Assembly: GCA_937934595.1 (NCBI GenBank)
Contig: CALGZA010000084.1
Location: 1-51,124, forward strand
DNA length: 51,124 bases
From: an uncultured Verrucomicrobiales bacterium
Lineage (GTDB): Bacteria > Verrucomicrobiota > Verrucomicrobiia > Verrucomicrobiales > Akkermansiaceae
Direction: 5' to 3'
The notes beneath the pieces were generated by a model, which had not been told where the DNA came from, did not search any database, and saw only the letters and a list, made by a program, of their open reading frames with translations. This document shows positions 5,707-42,386 of the stretch, piece after piece (positions within the stretch are counted from its first letter, which is position 1; each line of letters begins with the position of its first letter). A program made the position numbers and the translations under genes.

Positions 5707-6978
<1,272 letters not shown>

Positions 6979-7035: not shown

Positions 7036-8196
7036 TTATTTAGAAGCTTCGATGAGTGCGGCGAATTCTTCGAAGAAGTATTTGGCGTCATTTGGTCCTG
7101 GAGCTGCTTCTGGGTGGTATTGTACGGAGAATGCTGGGAATGTTTTGTGACGGATTCCTTCGATGGTTTTGTCGTTTAGGTTGATGTGGGTAATTTCTAC
7201 ATCGTCTGGGAGTGATTCTGGGTCAGTGGCGAATCCGTGGTTTTGAGCGGTGATGGAGACTTTGCCGCCGTAGTTGGGGCGAAGGTCTTTAACTGGTTGG
7301 TTACCACCGCGGTGGCCGAATTTGAGTTTGTATGTGGTTCCTCCGAATGCGTGAGTGAGGATTTGGTGGCCGAGGCAGATTCCGAATATGGGTTTTTTGC
7401 CGAGTAGTTTTTTGACTTCTGTGTGGATGTAGTCAAGTGCGGCTGGGTCACCTGGTCCGTTTGAGAGGAATATTCCGTCTGGGTTGAGGGCGAGGACTTC
7501 TTCTGCTGTTGTGCGAGAGTTGACTACTGTGATGTCGAATCCTTGCTGGCGCATGGATCTGAGGATGTTGTATTTGACGCCGAAGTCGTAGGCTACGATG
7601 TTGTATTTGACTGGTGGTAGTGTCTCGTAGTGTCCTGGGCGGTTTTGAGATGTGCTGGGGATGTTCCAGAGTCTGGATTCTTTGTTCCAGTGGTAGTTTT
7701 CTGTTGTGGATACTTCTTTTACGAAGTCTGAGCCAGCCATTGGAGGAGCGTCTTTAGCTTTTTGGACGGCTTCTTCGGCGGTGAGTTCAGTGGTGATGCA
7801 TGAGCGCATGGCACCTGCGGTGCGGAGGTGCTTGGTGAGTGCGCGTGTATCGATGTCTTCGATACCGATGATTTTATGATCAGCGAAGTAGTTTTCTAGT
7901 GATTGTTGTGACCTGAAGTTAGATGCGACGGGTGCTAGTTCTCCGATGACGAGTCCGCGTACCTGAGGGCCTGCGGATTCTGCGTCTTCTGGGTTAATTC
8001 CGTAATTACCGATGAGTGGGTATGTGAGAGTGACTATTTGTCCGCGGTATGAAGGGTCTGTGATGATTTCTTGGTATCCGGTCATGGAGGTGTTAAAGCA
8101 GATTTCTCCTGTGGTGGTTCCAGTGTGACCAAAAGCTAGCCCTATAAAGGTGCGGCCGTCTTCGAGTGCTAAGATAGCGTAGTTTGAATCCTTCAT
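7036..8196 (-). CDS. carA: Carbamoyl-phosphate synthase small (glutaminase) subunit
   Basis: CarA releases ammonia from glutamine and passes it to CarB for carbamoyl phosphate, feeding pyrimidine and arginine synthesis. The 386-residue product has the CPSase small-chain N-domain (FNTSMTGYQEI, ITDPSYRGQI) and a class I amidotransferase domain with nucleophile Cys274 in GICLGHQI and His361/Glu363 in HPEAAPGP. Length and motifs are complete. No carB is present in the window, so the large subunit is encoded elsewhere. It is divergent from the small lipoprotein gene across a 218-bp gap in which I see no other gene. Confidence 0.97.
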   Translation of the reverse strand: MKDSNYAILALEDGRTFIGLAFGHTGTTTGEICFNTSMTGYQEIITDPSYRGQIVTLTYPLIGNYGINPEDAESAGPQVRGLVIGELAPVASNFRSQQSLENYFADHKIIGIEDIDTRALTKHLRTAGAMRSCITTELTAEEAVQKAKDAPPMAGSDFVKEVSTTENYHWNKESRLWNIPSTSQNRPGHYETLPPVKYNIVAYDFGVKYNILRSMRQQGFDITVVNSRTTAEEVLALNPDGIFLSNGPGDPAALDYIHTEVKKLLGKKPIFGICLGHQILTHAFGGTTYKLKFGHRGGNQPVKDLRPNYGGKVSITAQNHGFATDPESLPDDVEITHINLNDKTIEGIRHKTFPAFSVQYHPEAAPGPNDAKYFFEEFAALIEASK

Positions 8197-8414
8197 GATA
8201 AGTGTGTTGTTAGCGTATCTGACTCTTCAAGTCAGCGTTGCGGGCGAAGACTAGGAGGCGGTAGCGAACTGTGCAAGTATTTAGCGATAGATTTGTTAAG
8301 TTTTTGGTTAGGAGGTTTTGCGGTCTGAGGGTGAGGGAGTTGTTTGGATGGTGGTTATTTTTTGGTAATTGTCTTCTTGATTTTTTTGTTAAATAGCTTA
8401 GATGTGGTGGTGCA

Positions 8415-8552
8415 ATGAAAAGGTTTATTTTATTATCGGCTGTTATTTCCGCTTTCGTAGTATTGAGTTCATGTGAGCAGCATGATTGGGATGAAACGAA
8501 GCTTCTTCATAAGGATAAGGCTAAGCCTAGTTCTGATGGTGGAGGACATTAA
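8415..8552 (+). CDS. Small lipoprotein, 45 residues
   Basis: A short frame with ATG at 8415 encodes a hydrophobic signal followed by a lipobox (VLSSC, Cys20) and then a short charged tail beginning EQHDWDETK and ending in DGGGH. This is a typical very small lipoprotein anchored by lipid at the modified Cys. I do not recognise the family. It has a GGTGG run a few bases before the ATG, one of the few starts here with any purine-rich upstream element. The UbiA-like membrane protein gene follows within 60 bp on the same strand, so the two could be linked. Confidence 0.6.
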   Translation: MKRFILLSAVISAFVVLSSCEQHDWDETKLLHKDKAKPSSDGGGH

Positions 8553-8609
8553 AATAGTGGATACTGAGGTTGATTTAGAGATGGATCGTTCTATATTTTT
8601 TTGGTTAGT

Positions 8610-9605
8610 ATGAACGATAAATCTACAACGAGGTCACCATTGTGGCTGGTGCCTAACTTACTGAGCTTGGATGCTCCGTTGGTAGCGGTGTGCTGGATGT
8701 GGGTAATCGCCAAGTCTATGAGGGTGGTTTATGTGGAAACTTATGCTTATTGGCTTTTAGCGGGGGCTGTGTGGAGTATTTATGTTCTGGATAGGGTTCT
8801 GGATGCGAAGCGTTATGGAGGTGATGTGTCTGAGATGAGTCCTAGGCATCAGTTTCATTGGAAGCATTGGAAGATTTTGATTTTTTTGGTAGCTGGTGTG
8901 GTTGTTTATTGTGGTTATTCTGCATTTAATGTTGCTTCTTCTGCACTTCTTACGGCTGGAGTTTCTGGTGTGGGGTTGGTTTTGTTATATATACTGACGC
9001 GGAAGTTTGATGGTGGTGATGTGGCTTATGCTAAGAATTTTGTGGCTGCGATGACTTTTTCTTTTGGTGTATCTGCGCCTATTGTTGTGGAGTCTATTCA
9101 GTTACAGATTGGTATATCTGATATTTGGTTTCATTTTAGTGAGCATTCTGATGCGGATTTCTTTTTGGCGTTACGGCATGGAGCTGCTAATTTTTTGGTG
9201 ATGACGGCTTCTACAGTGGCTTCGGTATTTGCAATTAGTTCGTTGCCGTTTTTGTTTGGGATGCTTTGTTTTTTAAATATAACGGCGATTGATTTGTGGG
9301 AGAAGTCAAGGCGGAGTAGTGAGGATGATGAGAAGGATGCTTGTGAGGCTATTTTGGGTGTAGGCTTGCTTGCTTTAGCGGCATTGGCGGTTTATTTGTT
9401 AGCTTTTAAGCTTTCGGAGGATGAGCGGCCGTTTTGTTATTTGGTGATGGTGGCTGCTGCTTTGTTGCAGTTGGTAAATAAGAATAGGGCGATGTTTTAT
9501 CTTGATGCTCAGCGAGTATTGGCTGATTTGGCGTTGATTTTGCCGTTGCCTTTGTTTTGGCTTTTGAGTGGTGAAGCGCTGTTTGCTTTGGTGGGGTTGT
9601 TTTAG
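8610..9605 (+). CDS. UbiA-like multi-pass membrane protein
   Basis: A roughly 331-residue protein with about eight or nine hydrophobic segments across its whole length. Near residue 60 a cytoplasmic-side motif YVLDRVLDAKR has the DxxxD form seen in the first Asp-rich motif of UbiA prenyltransferases, but the canonical NDxxDxxxD is not complete, and I see no clear second motif. It may be a divergent UbiA-superfamily enzyme working on a polyprenyl substrate, or a relative without that activity. ATG at 8610 is preferred; an in-frame TTG at 8601 would add three residues. Its TAG stop overlaps the stop of the converging gene. Confidence 0.65.
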   Translation: MNDKSTTRSPLWLVPNLLSLDAPLVAVCWMWVIAKSMRVVYVETYAYWLLAGAVWSIYVLDRVLDAKRYGGDVSEMSPRHQFHWKHWKILIFLVAGVVVYCGYSAFNVASSALLTAGVSGVGLVLLYILTRKFDGGDVAYAKNFVAAMTFSFGVSAPIVVESIQLQIGISDIWFHFSEHSDADFFLALRHGAANFLVMTASTVASVFAISSLPFLFGMLCFLNITAIDLWEKSRRSSEDDEKDACEAILGVGLLALAALAVYLLAFKLSEDERPFCYLVMVAAALLQLVNKNRAMFYLDAQRVLADLALILPLPLFWLLSGEALFALVGLF

Positions 9606-37260: not shown

Positions 37261-37352
37261 TTAGAGGGGCGGGGGCTTAGTTTTTTGATAGGATTTTTTA
37301 GGTGGTGCATTTTGCTGTTGCTAAATGTGGTTATGTGCATTTTGCTTATGAT

Positions 37353-40300
37353 ATGTTGAATGTTGTTTATGATTTGCCGTTCCCTGATGGGAAGCTTTAT
37401 GAGGAGTTAGAAGAGCTGATCAAGGAGGATCAGATGCTGACTATTTGGAACAAGATAGAGGGGTATAGGCCATTGGCTGAGTGGCCAGCAGGTGAGCCAA
37501 GGAGGATGGCTGCTTTGATAGCTAGCAGGCTGGGTGATAGGAGATTATCAGTAGTATTGGATTATTTGAATTATAGGACGCATCGTAATCATCCGAAGTT
37601 TGCTTTGTATTATCACTATAGTAGATTAGTTATGGCAACTCAGCCGGTTGTTATAAAGGCGATTGATGTGATTTTAGGGCAGTCACGGAGTGAGATGGAG
37701 CCTGAGTTGCTGGCTGATTATTTGGTTTATAAGGCGTGGTTGTTAGCTACTGTGAAGGATTTTGGTAGAGCGAATATTTTAGTTGAGGAGGCTAAGGATG
37801 TGGCTCCTGAGTATGCATGGGTTTACGTTCAAGAGTCTGATATTTTAGAGAAGCAGGATAGGTATGAAGAGGCAAATAGGGCTGTAGATTATGCTTTGCG
37901 GTTACGGCCTTTGTATCATGCTGCGATTTTACGTAAGGAGACGGCTTTGATTCAGTTAAACCGGGATGATGAGGCAATGGAGTTACTGATGCGAGCGAAT
38001 GCGCGAGCTGAGCATGGGGTGTATGGTCTTCGGTTACAGCATTTGTATTCTGAGAGGGAAGATCATGAAAAGATGTTATGGGCGCTGGGGGAGTATGAGC
38101 GTTTTTCACCTATGTTACCTGATAAGAGTAAAGAGTGGTTATCAGGGCGAAGGGGTGATTGTTATTATTTGGCGGGAAATTACGAGAGTGCACTTGAGTG
38201 TTATTCGAAGTTTGAGAAAGGTTTCTATAAGACGGTTCATGGTCATTTGAAGAAGAATATTGAAGGTGCACATAGACGTATTAAGCTGGATGTTCCTTTT
38301 GTGAGGCAGCATGATATGACCTGTGCTCCTGCTACGCTTGCTTCATTGTCTAAGTATTATGGTAAGGAGCACGATCATCTCGAGATAGCGGAGGCGATTT
38401 GTTATGATGGGACTCCTTGGCATAAGGAGAGGACATGGGCAGAGTCTAATGGTTTTAGTGTATTTGAGTTTAGGTTTACTGAGGAGGTGACTAAGGTTTT
38501 GATCGACCGTGAGTTACCATTTACTCTGAGTACACATGCTGTAACTTCGGCCCATTTGCAGGCTTGTATTGGTTATGATAGTAGGTTGGGATTGGCTATA
38601 ATCAGAGATCCTACGAATAGGCATTATGGTGAGATGTTATTTGAGGATTTGGTGAGAGAGCATCCTGTTTTTGGCCCACGCGGCATGCTTTTTGTGCCGG
38701 AAGAGGAGTTAGATAAGGTTGAGGGTATAGATTTTCCTGATCAAACAATTTATGATGAGCGACATGCTTTGATGTTGGCATTGGATGCACATGATGAATT
38801 CAAGATGATGGAGGCGATATCGACATTGCGAGCGATAGGAGGCGAGCATGCTTTGGTGATTGATTCTGAGATGAGGTTAGAGCGTTACCGTAGTAATCAT
38901 GTCAGGGTTCATGAGCTTTGTATGATGCTGCATGAAAGGTTTCCTGATTCTGAGGGGATTGCTCTGGATTATTTCTATTCATCAAAGTGGCGGTATGGGC
39001 GAGGTAAGCAACTGGAGATAGGATTGAATACGGTAGCGAAAGAGGGTGCAGATCCGATATTCTATGCAGAGCTTGGAGATTTGTATTTAGAGGACTTGAG
39101 GGATATAGAAATAGCTGAGTTTTATTTAAAAAAGTCTGCTAAGTGTACGTTTTCTAATGCAAGATCAATGGCAGGCTTGGCTTTATGTTCTTACCGTAAG
39201 GGGGAACTTGATGATGCGCTTGATTTTAAGCGCTATGCGTCATGTCAGAGTCCTAGCTGGGAGGCTTATGCTTATCAGTATTTTATGATGGCTTTAGAGG
39301 TTTCACGAGAGGGAGAAGCGCTTGCTTTTTTAGAGGCTAGAACAAGAGACCTGGGTAAATCAAGTAGTGCACCTTGGGTGACATTGTCACGAGCGTATGA
39401 GGAGATTCATGATGATGAGTCATCTCGGAGGGTGGCTAAGAGGGCTTTAGAGCTTTTTCCGGAAGATGGCGATTTGATGGTTCATTTGGCGATGAGTAGT
39501 CATTCATGGGGTGAGGGTGAGCAGGCCGAGGCCTATATATCTAAAGCTAAAGTTCATCTTTCTGATGAAGATTGGCATTTTGCTTGTGGGAATTTAGAGA
39601 GGATATTAGGCGACAGGTTGAAAGCGTTGAGGCATTTCAAGAGGGTGACTGAGCTTAATGTGATGCATTACAGTGGGCAACGCAGATATTGTGATTTGTT
39701 GGAGGAGGAGTATGGTTCTGGATATGTATTGAATTATCTTAAATCTCTTATATCTGAGCATGGTGAGTCGTTGATCTTACTTGAGATTTATGCGGTGAAG
39801 TTATCTGAGCTAAATGATGAGCGGTTGGAGGTAGTTCTGAGGAAAATATTGAATTTAGATCCTCACAATTTGTGGGCTATGCGCGAATTAGCGCTTAGAC
39901 GTGAAGAATCTGGTGATCTTGATGAGGCAATACGTCTGGCGAGACTGTGTGTAGAGAAGCAGCCAAATAAATGTGAGAGTCATGGAGTGTTAGGGGGAGT
40001 ATATATCAGGAACGGGATGCTTGAGGAGGGAAAGGAGTCATTTAAGGAAGCTATTCTGATCGATGCGGATTATACGTTTGCACTTACTGAGTGGTTGGAT
40101 TCACTGGAATACGGTGATGACAAGTTGGAGGTATTGGAGTTTTACCGAGAGCAGCTTGAGGTCCAGTCTGTCCAGGGAGAGGCTCTATGTGAATATAGGA
40201 AACTAGCATATAAGTATGTGCAGCCAGACTTATTGTTAGATCATGTTAGGGGCTTCCGGAGGAGAAGGGGATGCGAGTGGTCTGCATGGGTGGCTGAAAA

Positions 40301-42386
40301 AGATCAACTTTTGGACATGGATCGGCTGGATGAAGCTGAGCAACTAATTGATGAGGCTGTGGTTAAGTTTCCCCACATTCCTAGGATGTATGTAGAAAAA
40401 GCGTCTGTTCACAAGGCTATGGGGGATAATAAGGGGAATATTGAGAGTTTAGAAAAAGCTCTTGAGTATTCACCTTCGTGGGATTGGGTGGGTAGAGCGC
40501 TTGCAGATGCTTATGAGTTAGATGGTGATTTAGTAAGTGCTGAAAAAGTACTTAGGAAGACGATGCAGTGGGCTCCTTTAAACCCTGCTAATGGAGGCTC
40601 CTTGTCGAAATTACTAGATAATTCAGGACGGAAAGAAGAGGCGTTTTCGCTATTGGCTGAGGTTTTGGAGAGGTCACCGATGTATGACTGGGGATGGAGA
40701 GAGTTAAGTTCGTGGGCAGTTGATATGAAGCGTGAGGGTGAGGTTTTAGATTTATTAGACTGCCATATAGATAAGCGCAGTGAGTTGAGTGGTTGGTGGG
40801 AGGTATGCTTTGATGTTTATGATATTTTAAATAAATATGATAGTGCTCTGGAGTATTGTGAATCGTTTTTGCAGAAGGATTCTAGGAATATTGAGGTGCA
40901 TGATTCTAAGGCTTATATGTTGAGTAAGTTGGGTCGTGTAGAGGAGGCGATAGCAGCTGCATTACCTGAGGTTTTTGGTGATGCTGTTCCTCCGAGGTTG
41001 CTTTCAAGACGTGCATTAATAGTTTATCATTATGTTGGGCCGAGGCAGGGTTTAGAGCTGATGGAGAAATTAGTTAAGACGTTTCCGGATTTTGTGCCAG
41101 CGTATCGAAACTTGAGCGAATGGTATTATCTTTTGGGTGATCATTCAGCATCTGAGAAATATACGAAGCAATGGTTGAGGCTAGAGCCTCAATCTTTCAT
41201 GGCTTATGGTCATTTAGGTCTTCTTTCTGAGATAAGGAAGCGGTCTGATGTGGCTGCTTCTTATTATGAGAAAGCATTTCAGATAAATCCTGAATATGCT
41301 CATGCAGGTTATAGGGCGTTTGAGCTGAATTTAGAGAGTAAAAGGCTGGAGGTGCTGCCGAAGGTGATACAGTTGACTAGTCATTATGGTAGGTATACTG
41401 AGTCATTGGAGATGAGTGTTCGCTATGAGCATGCATTAGGTGATGAGCCGGAAGCTTTCCGTTATTTTACTGAATTGATTGAAAGGGATGATTTGCTAGT
41501 AGAGGAGATAGGGAAGACGATAGACTTATTTCCTAATAAGGGTAGGAAGCATGTTTTAGAGATAGTTGAAAGTGGTAGAGCTCAATCTGCTGGATTACTA
41601 CAGGCTTGGCTGTGGGGTAGGTCAAGCGTAGTGCATACGGCTAAGGTTGCTGTGGACTTGCCTTATCCAAGAGAGGTGAAGTATCCTTTGTGGAAAGATT
41701 TATTAGAATGGCTGAGTTCTACAGAGATTTATGAATCTGACATAAAGCTATTTAAGGATGATTTTTATACAGAATTTGCTGAAAACAAAGAGTGTTTGGC
41801 TGTGTTTTTACGAGCATGTGTAATTTTTGATCAGTATGCAATTGGGTGTGATGTTGCGGATGATTTGAAGCGAATGGATGGTGTAGAGGACTGGATGTTA
41901 GCGAATGCAGCCTATTGTGAGATAGCTGAGCGAGGTGTGGCTTCAAGTCAGGCAACTATTGAACGTGGAATCCAACTGCGTAGTGGAAATGGTATGAACC
42001 ATTTGCTAGCAATGTCAGCGATACTTGCTGCTGGAGGTGGGGATATAGAGGGTGCTGAGGAAGCGCTTGCTCAGCGAGATGAGGATATGGATCAAGGGGC
42101 AAAGAGTCTGGGGCATTTGGCTAAAATGTTTATTACTTGCATGCAGGGCGATCAAGATACTCAGAAGGTTTACTGGTATCAATTCAAGAATGTAACAGAG
42201 GGGTGGCAGCAGGATAAGTATTACAAATCTGTAATGAGTTTTTGTAGTGAGGTGGCTGCTAAGAATGGCAAGAAGTGGTTAGGGAAATTGAGTTTGCTGA
42301 AATCTATTGGATTGAATAGATTGAGTTGGTGGCATTTGGCAGTGGTTTATTTGCTAATTAAGCTGCTTGTTGCTCTATTAGATTAG
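37353..42386 (+). CDS. Giant TPR protein with embedded C39-like cysteine peptidase and C-terminal membrane anchor
   Basis: From the ATG at 37353 the product has 1677 residues; an in-frame GTG at 37302 would add 17 (numbering here uses that longer frame, 1694). Repeated helical pairs with TPR spacing fill most of the protein on both sides of a papain-like domain (about 328-465) resembling the peptidase C39-like/PA2778 type: Cys341 in MTCAPATLAS, His418 in SAHLQACIGYD, Asp436 in IIRDPT. The last 20 residues (about 1674-1694) form one hydrophobic anchor. No N-terminal signal is seen, so it is probably tail-anchored facing the cytoplasm. The substrate and partners are unknown. Confidence 0.8.
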   Translation: MLNVVYDLPFPDGKLYEELEELIKEDQMLTIWNKIEGYRPLAEWPAGEPRRMAALIASRLGDRRLSVVLDYLNYRTHRNHPKFALYYHYSRLVMATQPVVIKAIDVILGQSRSEMEPELLADYLVYKAWLLATVKDFGRANILVEEAKDVAPEYAWVYVQESDILEKQDRYEEANRAVDYALRLRPLYHAAILRKETALIQLNRDDEAMELLMRANARAEHGVYGLRLQHLYSEREDHEKMLWALGEYERFSPMLPDKSKEWLSGRRGDCYYLAGNYESALECYSKFEKGFYKTVHGHLKKNIEGAHRRIKLDVPFVRQHDMTCAPATLASLSKYYGKEHDHLEIAEAICYDGTPWHKERTWAESNGFSVFEFRFTEEVTKVLIDRELPFTLSTHAVTSAHLQACIGYDSRLGLAIIRDPTNRHYGEMLFEDLVREHPVFGPRGMLFVPEEELDKVEGIDFPDQTIYDERHALMLALDAHDEFKMMEAISTLRAIGGEHALVIDSEMRLERYRSNHVRVHELCMMLHERFPDSEGIALDYFYSSKWRYGRGKQLEIGLNTVAKEGADPIFYAELGDLYLEDLRDIEIAEFYLKKSAKCTFSNARSMAGLALCSYRKGELDDALDFKRYASCQSPSWEAYAYQYFMMALEVSREGEALAFLEARTRDLGKSSSAPWVTLSRAYEEIHDDESSRRVAKRALELFPEDGDLMVHLAMSSHSWGEGEQAEAYISKAKVHLSDEDWHFACGNLERILGDRLKALRHFKRVTELNVMHYSGQRRYCDLLEEEYGSGYVLNYLKSLISEHGESLILLEIYAVKLSELNDERLEVVLRKILNLDPHNLWAMRELALRREESGDLDEAIRLARLCVEKQPNKCESHGVLGGVYIRNGMLEEGKESFKEAILIDADYTFALTEWLDSLEYGDDKLEVLEFYREQLEVQSVQGEALCEYRKLAYKYVQPDLLLDHVRGFRRRRGCEWSAWVAEKDQLLDMDRLDEAEQLIDEAVVKFPHIPRMYVEKASVHKAMGDNKGNIESLEKALEYSPSWDWVGRALADAYELDGDLVSAEKVLRKTMQWAPLNPANGGSLSKLLDNSGRKEEAFSLLAEVLERSPMYDWGWRELSSWAVDMKREGEVLDLLDCHIDKRSELSGWWEVCFDVYDILNKYDSALEYCESFLQKDSRNIEVHDSKAYMLSKLGRVEEAIAAALPEVFGDAVPPRLLSRRALIVYHYVGPRQGLELMEKLVKTFPDFVPAYRNLSEWYYLLGDHSASEKYTKQWLRLEPQSFMAYGHLGLLSEIRKRSDVAASYYEKAFQINPEYAHAGYRAFELNLESKRLEVLPKVIQLTSHYGRYTESLEMSVRYEHALGDEPEAFRYFTELIERDDLLVEEIGKTIDLFPNKGRKHVLEIVESGRAQSAGLLQAWLWGRSSVVHTAKVAVDLPYPREVKYPLWKDLLEWLSSTEIYESDIKLFKDDFYTEFAENKECLAVFLRACVIFDQYAIGCDVADDLKRMDGVEDWMLANAAYCEIAERGVASSQATIERGIQLRSGNGMNHLLAMSAILAAGGGDIEGAEEALAQRDEDMDQGAKSLGHLAKMFITCMQGDQDTQKVYWYQFKNVTEGWQQDKYYKSVMSFCSEVAAKNGKKWLGKLSLLKSIGLNRLSWWHLAVVYLLIKLLVALLD

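Follow-up and report, generated by a model that had tools for sequence, protein, structure and literature searches.

A giant bacterial TPR protein with an inserted C39_2 domain belongs to a family spread over at least six phyla

The window, a 51,124-nucleotide stretch of DNA from an uncultured Verrucomicrobiales bacterium that by length makes up an entire contig, encodes a giant protein in which a papain-like domain of the Peptidase_C39_2 family is set between two TPR arms. The giant is one member of a broad family and no isolated oddity, and it combines known parts into a widely conserved architecture that is apparently undescribed. The chain, mostly of 1640–1780 residues, keeps an intact catalytic set in at least six phyla, yet no family-specific model was found in Pfam, searched with the window protein, or in NCBIfam, searched with the window protein and three relatives.

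The open reading frame is uninterrupted, ends at position 42386 of the + strand and codes for 1677 aa from an ATG at 37353 or for 1694 aa from a GTG at 37302. In a relative with 59% identity from genome G002 the start lies within a few residues of the window's ATG; residues are numbered here from this codon. An earlier note, made from the letters of the window, had listed a complete papain-like triad of Cys341, His418 and Asp436. The triad is complete, but those numbers are right only from the GTG, and from the ATG the residues become Cys324, His401 and Asp419. Inspection by eye reveals no export signal with either start codon. The chain runs from a TPR arm through the C39_2 domain (residues 309–450) into about 1200 residues of TPR and a single C-terminal hydrophobic helix (Table 1). 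The note's picture of TPR arms with a buried C39-like peptidase is borne out by the intact frame, Pfam matches above cut-off and confident models, as is its count of more than a thousand residues of TPR helices, on which the Pfam TPR families and the predicted structure agree. Chance resemblance is excluded because relatives display the same architecture (11 of 58 close genomes; 64 of 80 loci complete).

Table 1 Features of the giant and their positions in the window, with residues numbered from the ATG at 37353
Feature	Residues	Position	Strand	Basis
TPR–C39_2–TPR protein CDS		37353..42386	+	open frame; two candidate starts, ATG 37353 / GTG 37302
N-terminal TPR arm, 17 helices	13–301	37389..38255	+	AlphaFold2 model, Pfam TPR
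Papain-like C39_2 domain	309–450	38277..38702	+	PF13529, model, structural matches
Presumed oxyanion-hole residue	Gln319	38307..38309	+	67/67 members
Presumed nucleophile	Cys324 (Cys341 from GTG)	38322..38324	+	67/67 members
Triad histidine	His401 (His418 from GTG)	38553..38555	+	67/67 members
Triad aspartate	Asp419 (Asp436 from GTG)	38607..38609	+	66/67 members; Glu in L064
C-terminal TPR arm, ~70 helices	464–1651	38742..42305	+	models, Foldseek, conservation
C-terminal hydrophobic (transmembrane-like) helix	1659–1676	42327..42380	+	hydropathy, model

Pfam locates Peptidase_C39_2 (PF13529) at residues 312–420 with 37.8 bits against a gathering cut-off of 24, and the match reaches 41.8 bits in a search of the whole genome from which the window comes. 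Among PDB sequences the single protein as query found ComA at E 0.58. A profile query returned marginal matches to ComA (E 0.0099) and to the peptidase of an ABC-type bacteriocin transporter (E 0.08), with an unrelated ankyrin protein between these two C39 matches at E 0.036. The predicted structure displays a papain-like alpha/beta fold whose Z scores lie at 15–16 to PeiR endoisopeptidase (Z 16.0, 135 residues, rmsd 2.1), the ComA peptidase (Z 15.6, 132 residues, rmsd 2.5) and staphopain 1cv8 (Z 15.1, 141 residues, rmsd 3.0). By score, catalytic residues and modelled fold the domain of the giant is a C39_2 member, with proteolysis as its putative activity. Gln319 we take to be the oxyanion-hole residue by analogy with papain-like enzymes. 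The same genome holds two other C39_2 proteins of a different, short architecture with hydrophobic N-termini (L138 1417–2907, − strand, 496 aa; L139 1414–2787, − strand, 457 aa).

AlphaFold2 models built from alignments of the window and locus sequences cover the giant in two overlapping parts, residues 1–640 with a mean pLDDT of 94.5 and a pTM of 0.91 and residues 480–1677 with a pLDDT of 90.1 and a pTM of 0.78. Structure prediction, a check that the note had proposed, thereby gave TPR arms around an alpha/beta domain. The helices of the C-terminal arm are mostly paired with TPR-like spacing in the model, and neither inspection of these helices nor a Foldseek search revealed a second enzymatic domain in this arm. 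In Pfam, TPR_2 scores 94.5 bits against a cut-off of 27 and other TPR families also exceed their cut-offs. Structural matches of the arms comprise OGT, APC/C subunits, Tom70 and PilF and, by Foldseek, also the SKI complex, CTR9 and LbcA of the CtpA–LbcA complex (8sxf, 7rqf); such matches between a predicted model and TPR structures show fold only.

A search of genome contigs with the single protein found no relative, and tblastn against plasmids found none either. A profile of the peptidase domain, run against species genomes, detected 97 relatives, 80 of which were kept. According to their record titles these loci come from Verrucomicrobia, Planctomycetes, Proteobacteria, Acidobacteria, Myxococcota, Gemmatimonadota, Latescibacterota and one cyanobacterium, so the search for the same architecture in other genomes that the note had called for yielded 80 loci in at least six phyla. 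Many of the kept loci derive from bins, and carriers include isolates of Pseudomonas, Cupriavidus, Myxococcus, Haloferula and Chthoniobacter. L076 is titled as a Bordetella species with an isolate name that resembles an environmental bin, and the title is perhaps mislabelled. A single complete open reading frame of more than 1500 aa is present in 64 of the 80 loci. Nine loci are cut by a contig end (L050, L066, L077, L079, L085, L087, L095, L103 and L116), two contain runs of unknown bases (L063 and L081) and five are short or split (L047, L052, L059, L100 and L117). In L059 and L100 the family protein appears divided over two adjacent frames of 812 + 902 aa and 899 + 766 aa, respectively. L052 holds a 329-aa frame (5796–6785, + strand) that combines the peptidase region with a TM-like stretch at its C-terminus and may be a natural mini-form, a broken gene or an assembly error.

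The 67 members aligned at full length (64 complete loci, the window and two from the search of close genomes) are uniform in layout. Measured from stop to stop, 58 of 67 have 1640–1780 residues (median 1682, range 1523–1994). The start of the peptidase falls at segment position 300–345 in 52 of 64. One peptidase-profile match per genome was found in each of seven further genomes, reached through the loci, and in the window's own. On the − strand the latter also carries a second giant frame (L002, G000:C109), open over 1634 residues with 869 aa inside the locus, which is TPR-like by eye and matches weakly through repeats only.

Occurrence among related genomes is patchy. Strong, long matches occur in 11 of 58 close genomes, the window's own included. 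Counting every match at E 0.001 raises the number to 23 of 58, with short repeat matches only in the additional 12. Within the window's genus 3 of 12 genomes carry the giant, some of the remaining ones being incomplete, and in a sample of the phylum 9 of 387 genomes match at E up to 1e-10. Similarly, a single genome among 25 of the genus group of P. nitroreducens matches, namely the starting genome itself; the profile search found a family member in other Pseudomonas-named genomes as well. A FastTree tree, which gave long-branch warnings and was used for phylum clustering only, groups the members by phylum with 9 label changes, where 5 is the minimum and shuffled labels average 33.1. This clustering suggests that the gene is old and has been lost often and transferred sometimes.

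Conservation is concentrated in and around the catalytic domain. Gln319, Cys324 and His401 are invariant in all 67 members and Asp419 is kept in 66. Apart from the Glu at this position in L064, replacement of the triad in homologues, which the note had named as fatal to its proposal, was not found, and the repeats, whose identity it had left open to challenge, are confirmed as TPR by Pfam and the models. Columns with at least 85% identity make up 51 of 139 in the peptidase, 20 of 308 in the N-terminal arm, 49 of 530 in residues 451–980, 20 of 422 in residues 981–1400 and 3 of 251 in residues 1401–1677. Identity to the window protein is 41–83% over the peptidase and 19–33% over the repeats in all but the closest relative. 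Conserved polar positions number 7 in residues 1–311, 15 in residues 451–980 and 0 in residues 981–1677; the window protein differs at 4 of these 22 arm positions (135, 189, 482 and 513). As the conserved polar positions of the arms lie only near the peptidase, constraint on the arms centres there and the distal half looks structural. This pattern of residues suggests that clients may be held in the repeats adjoining the peptidase. In residues ~1480–1507, Trp positions and a DW-like motif common in relatives are absent from the window protein and partly absent from the closest relative, L041.

The note had described the protein as tail-anchored. Its single C-terminal hydrophobic helix is real in the window protein, where hydropathy places the start of the segment at residue 1657 and basic residues lie on the N side, but it does not define the family. 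The hydropathy rule assigns a TM-like segment near the C-terminus to only 13 of the 67. Twelve of these are Verrucomicrobia, the window among them, and one is an Acaryochloris; none of 22 Pseudomonadota or 19 Planctomycetota qualifies. In three of the 13, L036, L037 and L073, the segment lies 86–138 residues before the end, and the same rule finds single segments elsewhere in L060, L109 and L036. The closest relative, L041, as well as L048 and L068, falls below the rule yet is fairly hydrophobic, L041 being borderline.

Most members that lack the hydrophobic segment end in a basic, Trp-containing tail. A charge of +4 or more together with one or more Trp occurs in 48 of 54 such members versus 14 of 230 neighbour proteins, a control from which neighbour frames below 300 or above 2500 aa and those with a net charge above 3% (probably spurious) were left out; on charge alone (at least +4) 33 of the 230 control proteins qualify. 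The last 35 residues of the 54 members have a mean net charge of +6.0 and 2.5 Trp. Per 35 residues, the remainder of these chains, most of them acidic as a whole, averages a charge of −0.8 and 0.9 Trp. Since the 54 members are related, they do not count as 54 independent cases. Conservation in the last alignment columns is close to zero and the amphipathic moment of the tail is not consistently high. A composition kept without conserved sequence fits a membrane-docking tail, and basic Trp tails in 48 of 54 members suggest that membrane docking may be general; such a tail could instead bind nucleic acid or protein and not lipid.

In the window the giant's gene lies 3' of obg on the same strand, followed by two oppositely oriented frames without a Pfam match and then a PSCyt1/LRR gene; a DUF1501 gene lies farther along. 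The absence of an obvious partner gene, remarked upon in the note, extends to the family: across 79 loci, 77 of them with any neighbour, no neighbour family recurs in more than 5. Likewise, among 101 nearest neighbours no Pfam family is represented in more than 2. This tally covers 101 of the 103 eligible neighbours of 120–900 aa, from a list that left out six loci, two without a called neighbour and four as close relatives of kept loci. The idea of a partner operon was dropped because these searches found no recurrent neighbour, and for the same reason the giant's gene looks like an orphan; it may be co-transcribed with a neighbour in single genomes. In L042 the gene directly upstream of the family member (7774–8895, + strand) has a Tle1-like T6SS phospholipase effector domain, which is not recurrent among the 101 nearest neighbours.

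An association of the giant with obg was considered and rejected, as G002 and G007 have obg and the giant on different contigs. G004 has an obg gene 94% identical to that of the window and keeps the order miaA–tatD–hisG–obg, followed by a different gene that we take for a GMP synthase; its assembly (94% complete) holds no match to the giant. G009 has no giant match either, and at the giant's place, near a contig end, carries after obg a 100-aa frame (L165 8654–8956, + strand) that by eye looks like the start of a transposase. Over positions 1–50000 of the window every one of the 25 blocks, each of 2 kb, has a strongly positive GC skew (0.17–0.48) and a negative AT skew, a strong strand bias despite genes on both strands. 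By eye this bias seems to colour protein composition, for example in the Thr/Pro/Asn-rich products of the − strand.

The function that we propose, with the probabilities for and against it evenly balanced, is that of a self-contained, membrane-docked TPR scaffold in which clients would be presented to the chain's own cysteine protease and cleaved to a limited extent. A cytoplasmic single chain would bind client proteins or peptides through a TPR superhelix of about 40 helical hairpins, and the papain-like cysteine peptidase, inserted after approximately the first eight repeats, would cut the bound clients. Since neither an ATPase nor an unfoldase domain is visible in the chain, we expect limited cleavage at specific sites, leading to the processing or inactivation of an exposed segment and not to degradation. 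At its C-terminus the protein would dock on the inside of the cytoplasmic membrane, through the TM helix in the window's lineage and, in most other members, through the tail that is basic and contains Trp. Catalysis, a proteolytic reaction and not some other acyl transfer, binding in the TPR groove, cytoplasmic location and tail docking are what we infer. Slightly less probable than its opposite is the wider proposal of a phylum-crossing family of membrane-docked proteolytic scaffolds, in which one gene would serve client binding, cutting and anchoring with no need of an ATPase or a separate adaptor, and in which a TM helix and a basic aromatic tail would have replaced each other as the anchor in evolution. 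If the giant is a self-contained scaffolded protease, its clients and a new form of regulated proteolysis could come to light in a tractable host.

Related folds with other chemistry, namely acyl transfer by BtrH and isopeptide cleavage by PeiR, count against a protease. The domain might instead be a transferase, amidase or isopeptidase acting on a small molecule, a cell-wall peptide or a protein side chain, with the TPR arms recruiting the acceptor, which we consider unlikely yet deserving of real weight. PeiR heads the structural matches, within one Z unit of ComA and staphopain, and the closely related BtrH_N domain is part of an acyltransferase in the available text of PMC10318531, while the marginal profile matches favour C39 peptidases and Pfam assigns the domain to C39_2. 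A conflict or defence effector, whose arms would sense an invader protein before the protease cuts a host or phage target, is rather improbable: patchy occurrence in the genus, the phylum sample and the P. nitroreducens group, a self-contained single gene and wide phyletic spread would suit such a role, but no PADLOC model fits, the commonest neighbour Pfam families (best 25 of 134) are non-defence and the phylum-clustered tree is unlike that of a rapidly shuffled gene. There is little chance that the giant is a leader peptidase for secreted peptides of the RiPP or bacteriocin type, a role to which the likeness of fold and triad to transporter C39 domains would point, given that the chain lacks an ABC domain and that no Pfam family, transporters included, exceeds 2 of 101 immediate neighbours. 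Dead papain-like domains exist in other repeat proteins, for example in armadillo repeat-containing protein 3 according to the part of PMC10318531 at hand, but a catalytically dead scaffold with a vestigial domain is very hard to believe where, across phyla, Gln, Cys and His are invariant and Asp is kept in 66 of 67 members, and where no other region is as constrained as the domain. Separase-like and TPR-CHAT-like readings were considered as well and set aside.

The reading as a scaffolded protease can be set against known systems. The inserted domain exceeds the C39_2 (PF13529) cut-off and keeps the catalytic set. As far as the accessible text of PMC10318531 goes, C39_2 proteins are single-domain peptidases; the giant differs in carrying its domain within a protein of ~1680 residues, the rest of which is TPR. 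The giant is larger than PA2778-type proteins, as had been supposed: the PA2778 model (NF033920) has 255 positions, and its equivalog cut-off of 150 bits lies above the window protein (42.7 bits) and three relatives (58.1, 35.3 and 87.7 bits). A likeness to PA2778 is visible in the Burkholderia member, which covers model positions 3–255 with its peptidase and following repeats at 87.7 bits. The C39 domains of ABC transporters such as ComA are alike in fold and catalytic residues, while the giant has no ABC domain, no PF03412 match and no recurrent transporter neighbour.

Long TPR scaffolds (OGT, the SKI complex, CTR9, APC/C subunits and Tom70) share the superhelical TPR fold of the arms. We know of no papain-like insert in any of them. 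Calpain-like (C2) peptidases of Naegleria likewise join a papain-like peptidase to TPR, but in the available portion of PMC4631099 they belong to another peptidase family, are eukaryotic and have few TPR domains, located only before the peptidase. No defence model of PADLOC fits: the window protein has two weak repeat matches (E 9e-6 and 0.004) that cover 55–62 positions of models with 490 and 515 positions, and two relatives have none. A literature search, subscription papers and preprints lying outside its scope, found no description of a TPR–C39_2–TPR architecture, and the portions at hand of PMC10318531, PMC10352776 and PMC4631099 do not describe it. With the domain assigned to C39_2 by score, residues and fold, no fit to PA2778, ABC or PADLOC models and no description found, the giant thus consists of known domains in an apparently undescribed architecture.

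The LbcA–CtpA system of Pseudomonas aeruginosa is alike in that, as far as the source text available describes it, a TPR spiral partners and activates a protease. In that account the system consists of two chains, the outer-membrane lipoprotein LbcA and the carboxyl-terminal processing protease CtpA, whereas the giant is one chain, apparently cytoplasmic and of the cysteine type. Because the match to this complex is one of many TPR matches, the similarity is one of TPR in general. LbcA–CtpA may nevertheless serve, as an analogy of working only, as a precedent for an adaptor–protease mechanism of the kind proposed for the giant.
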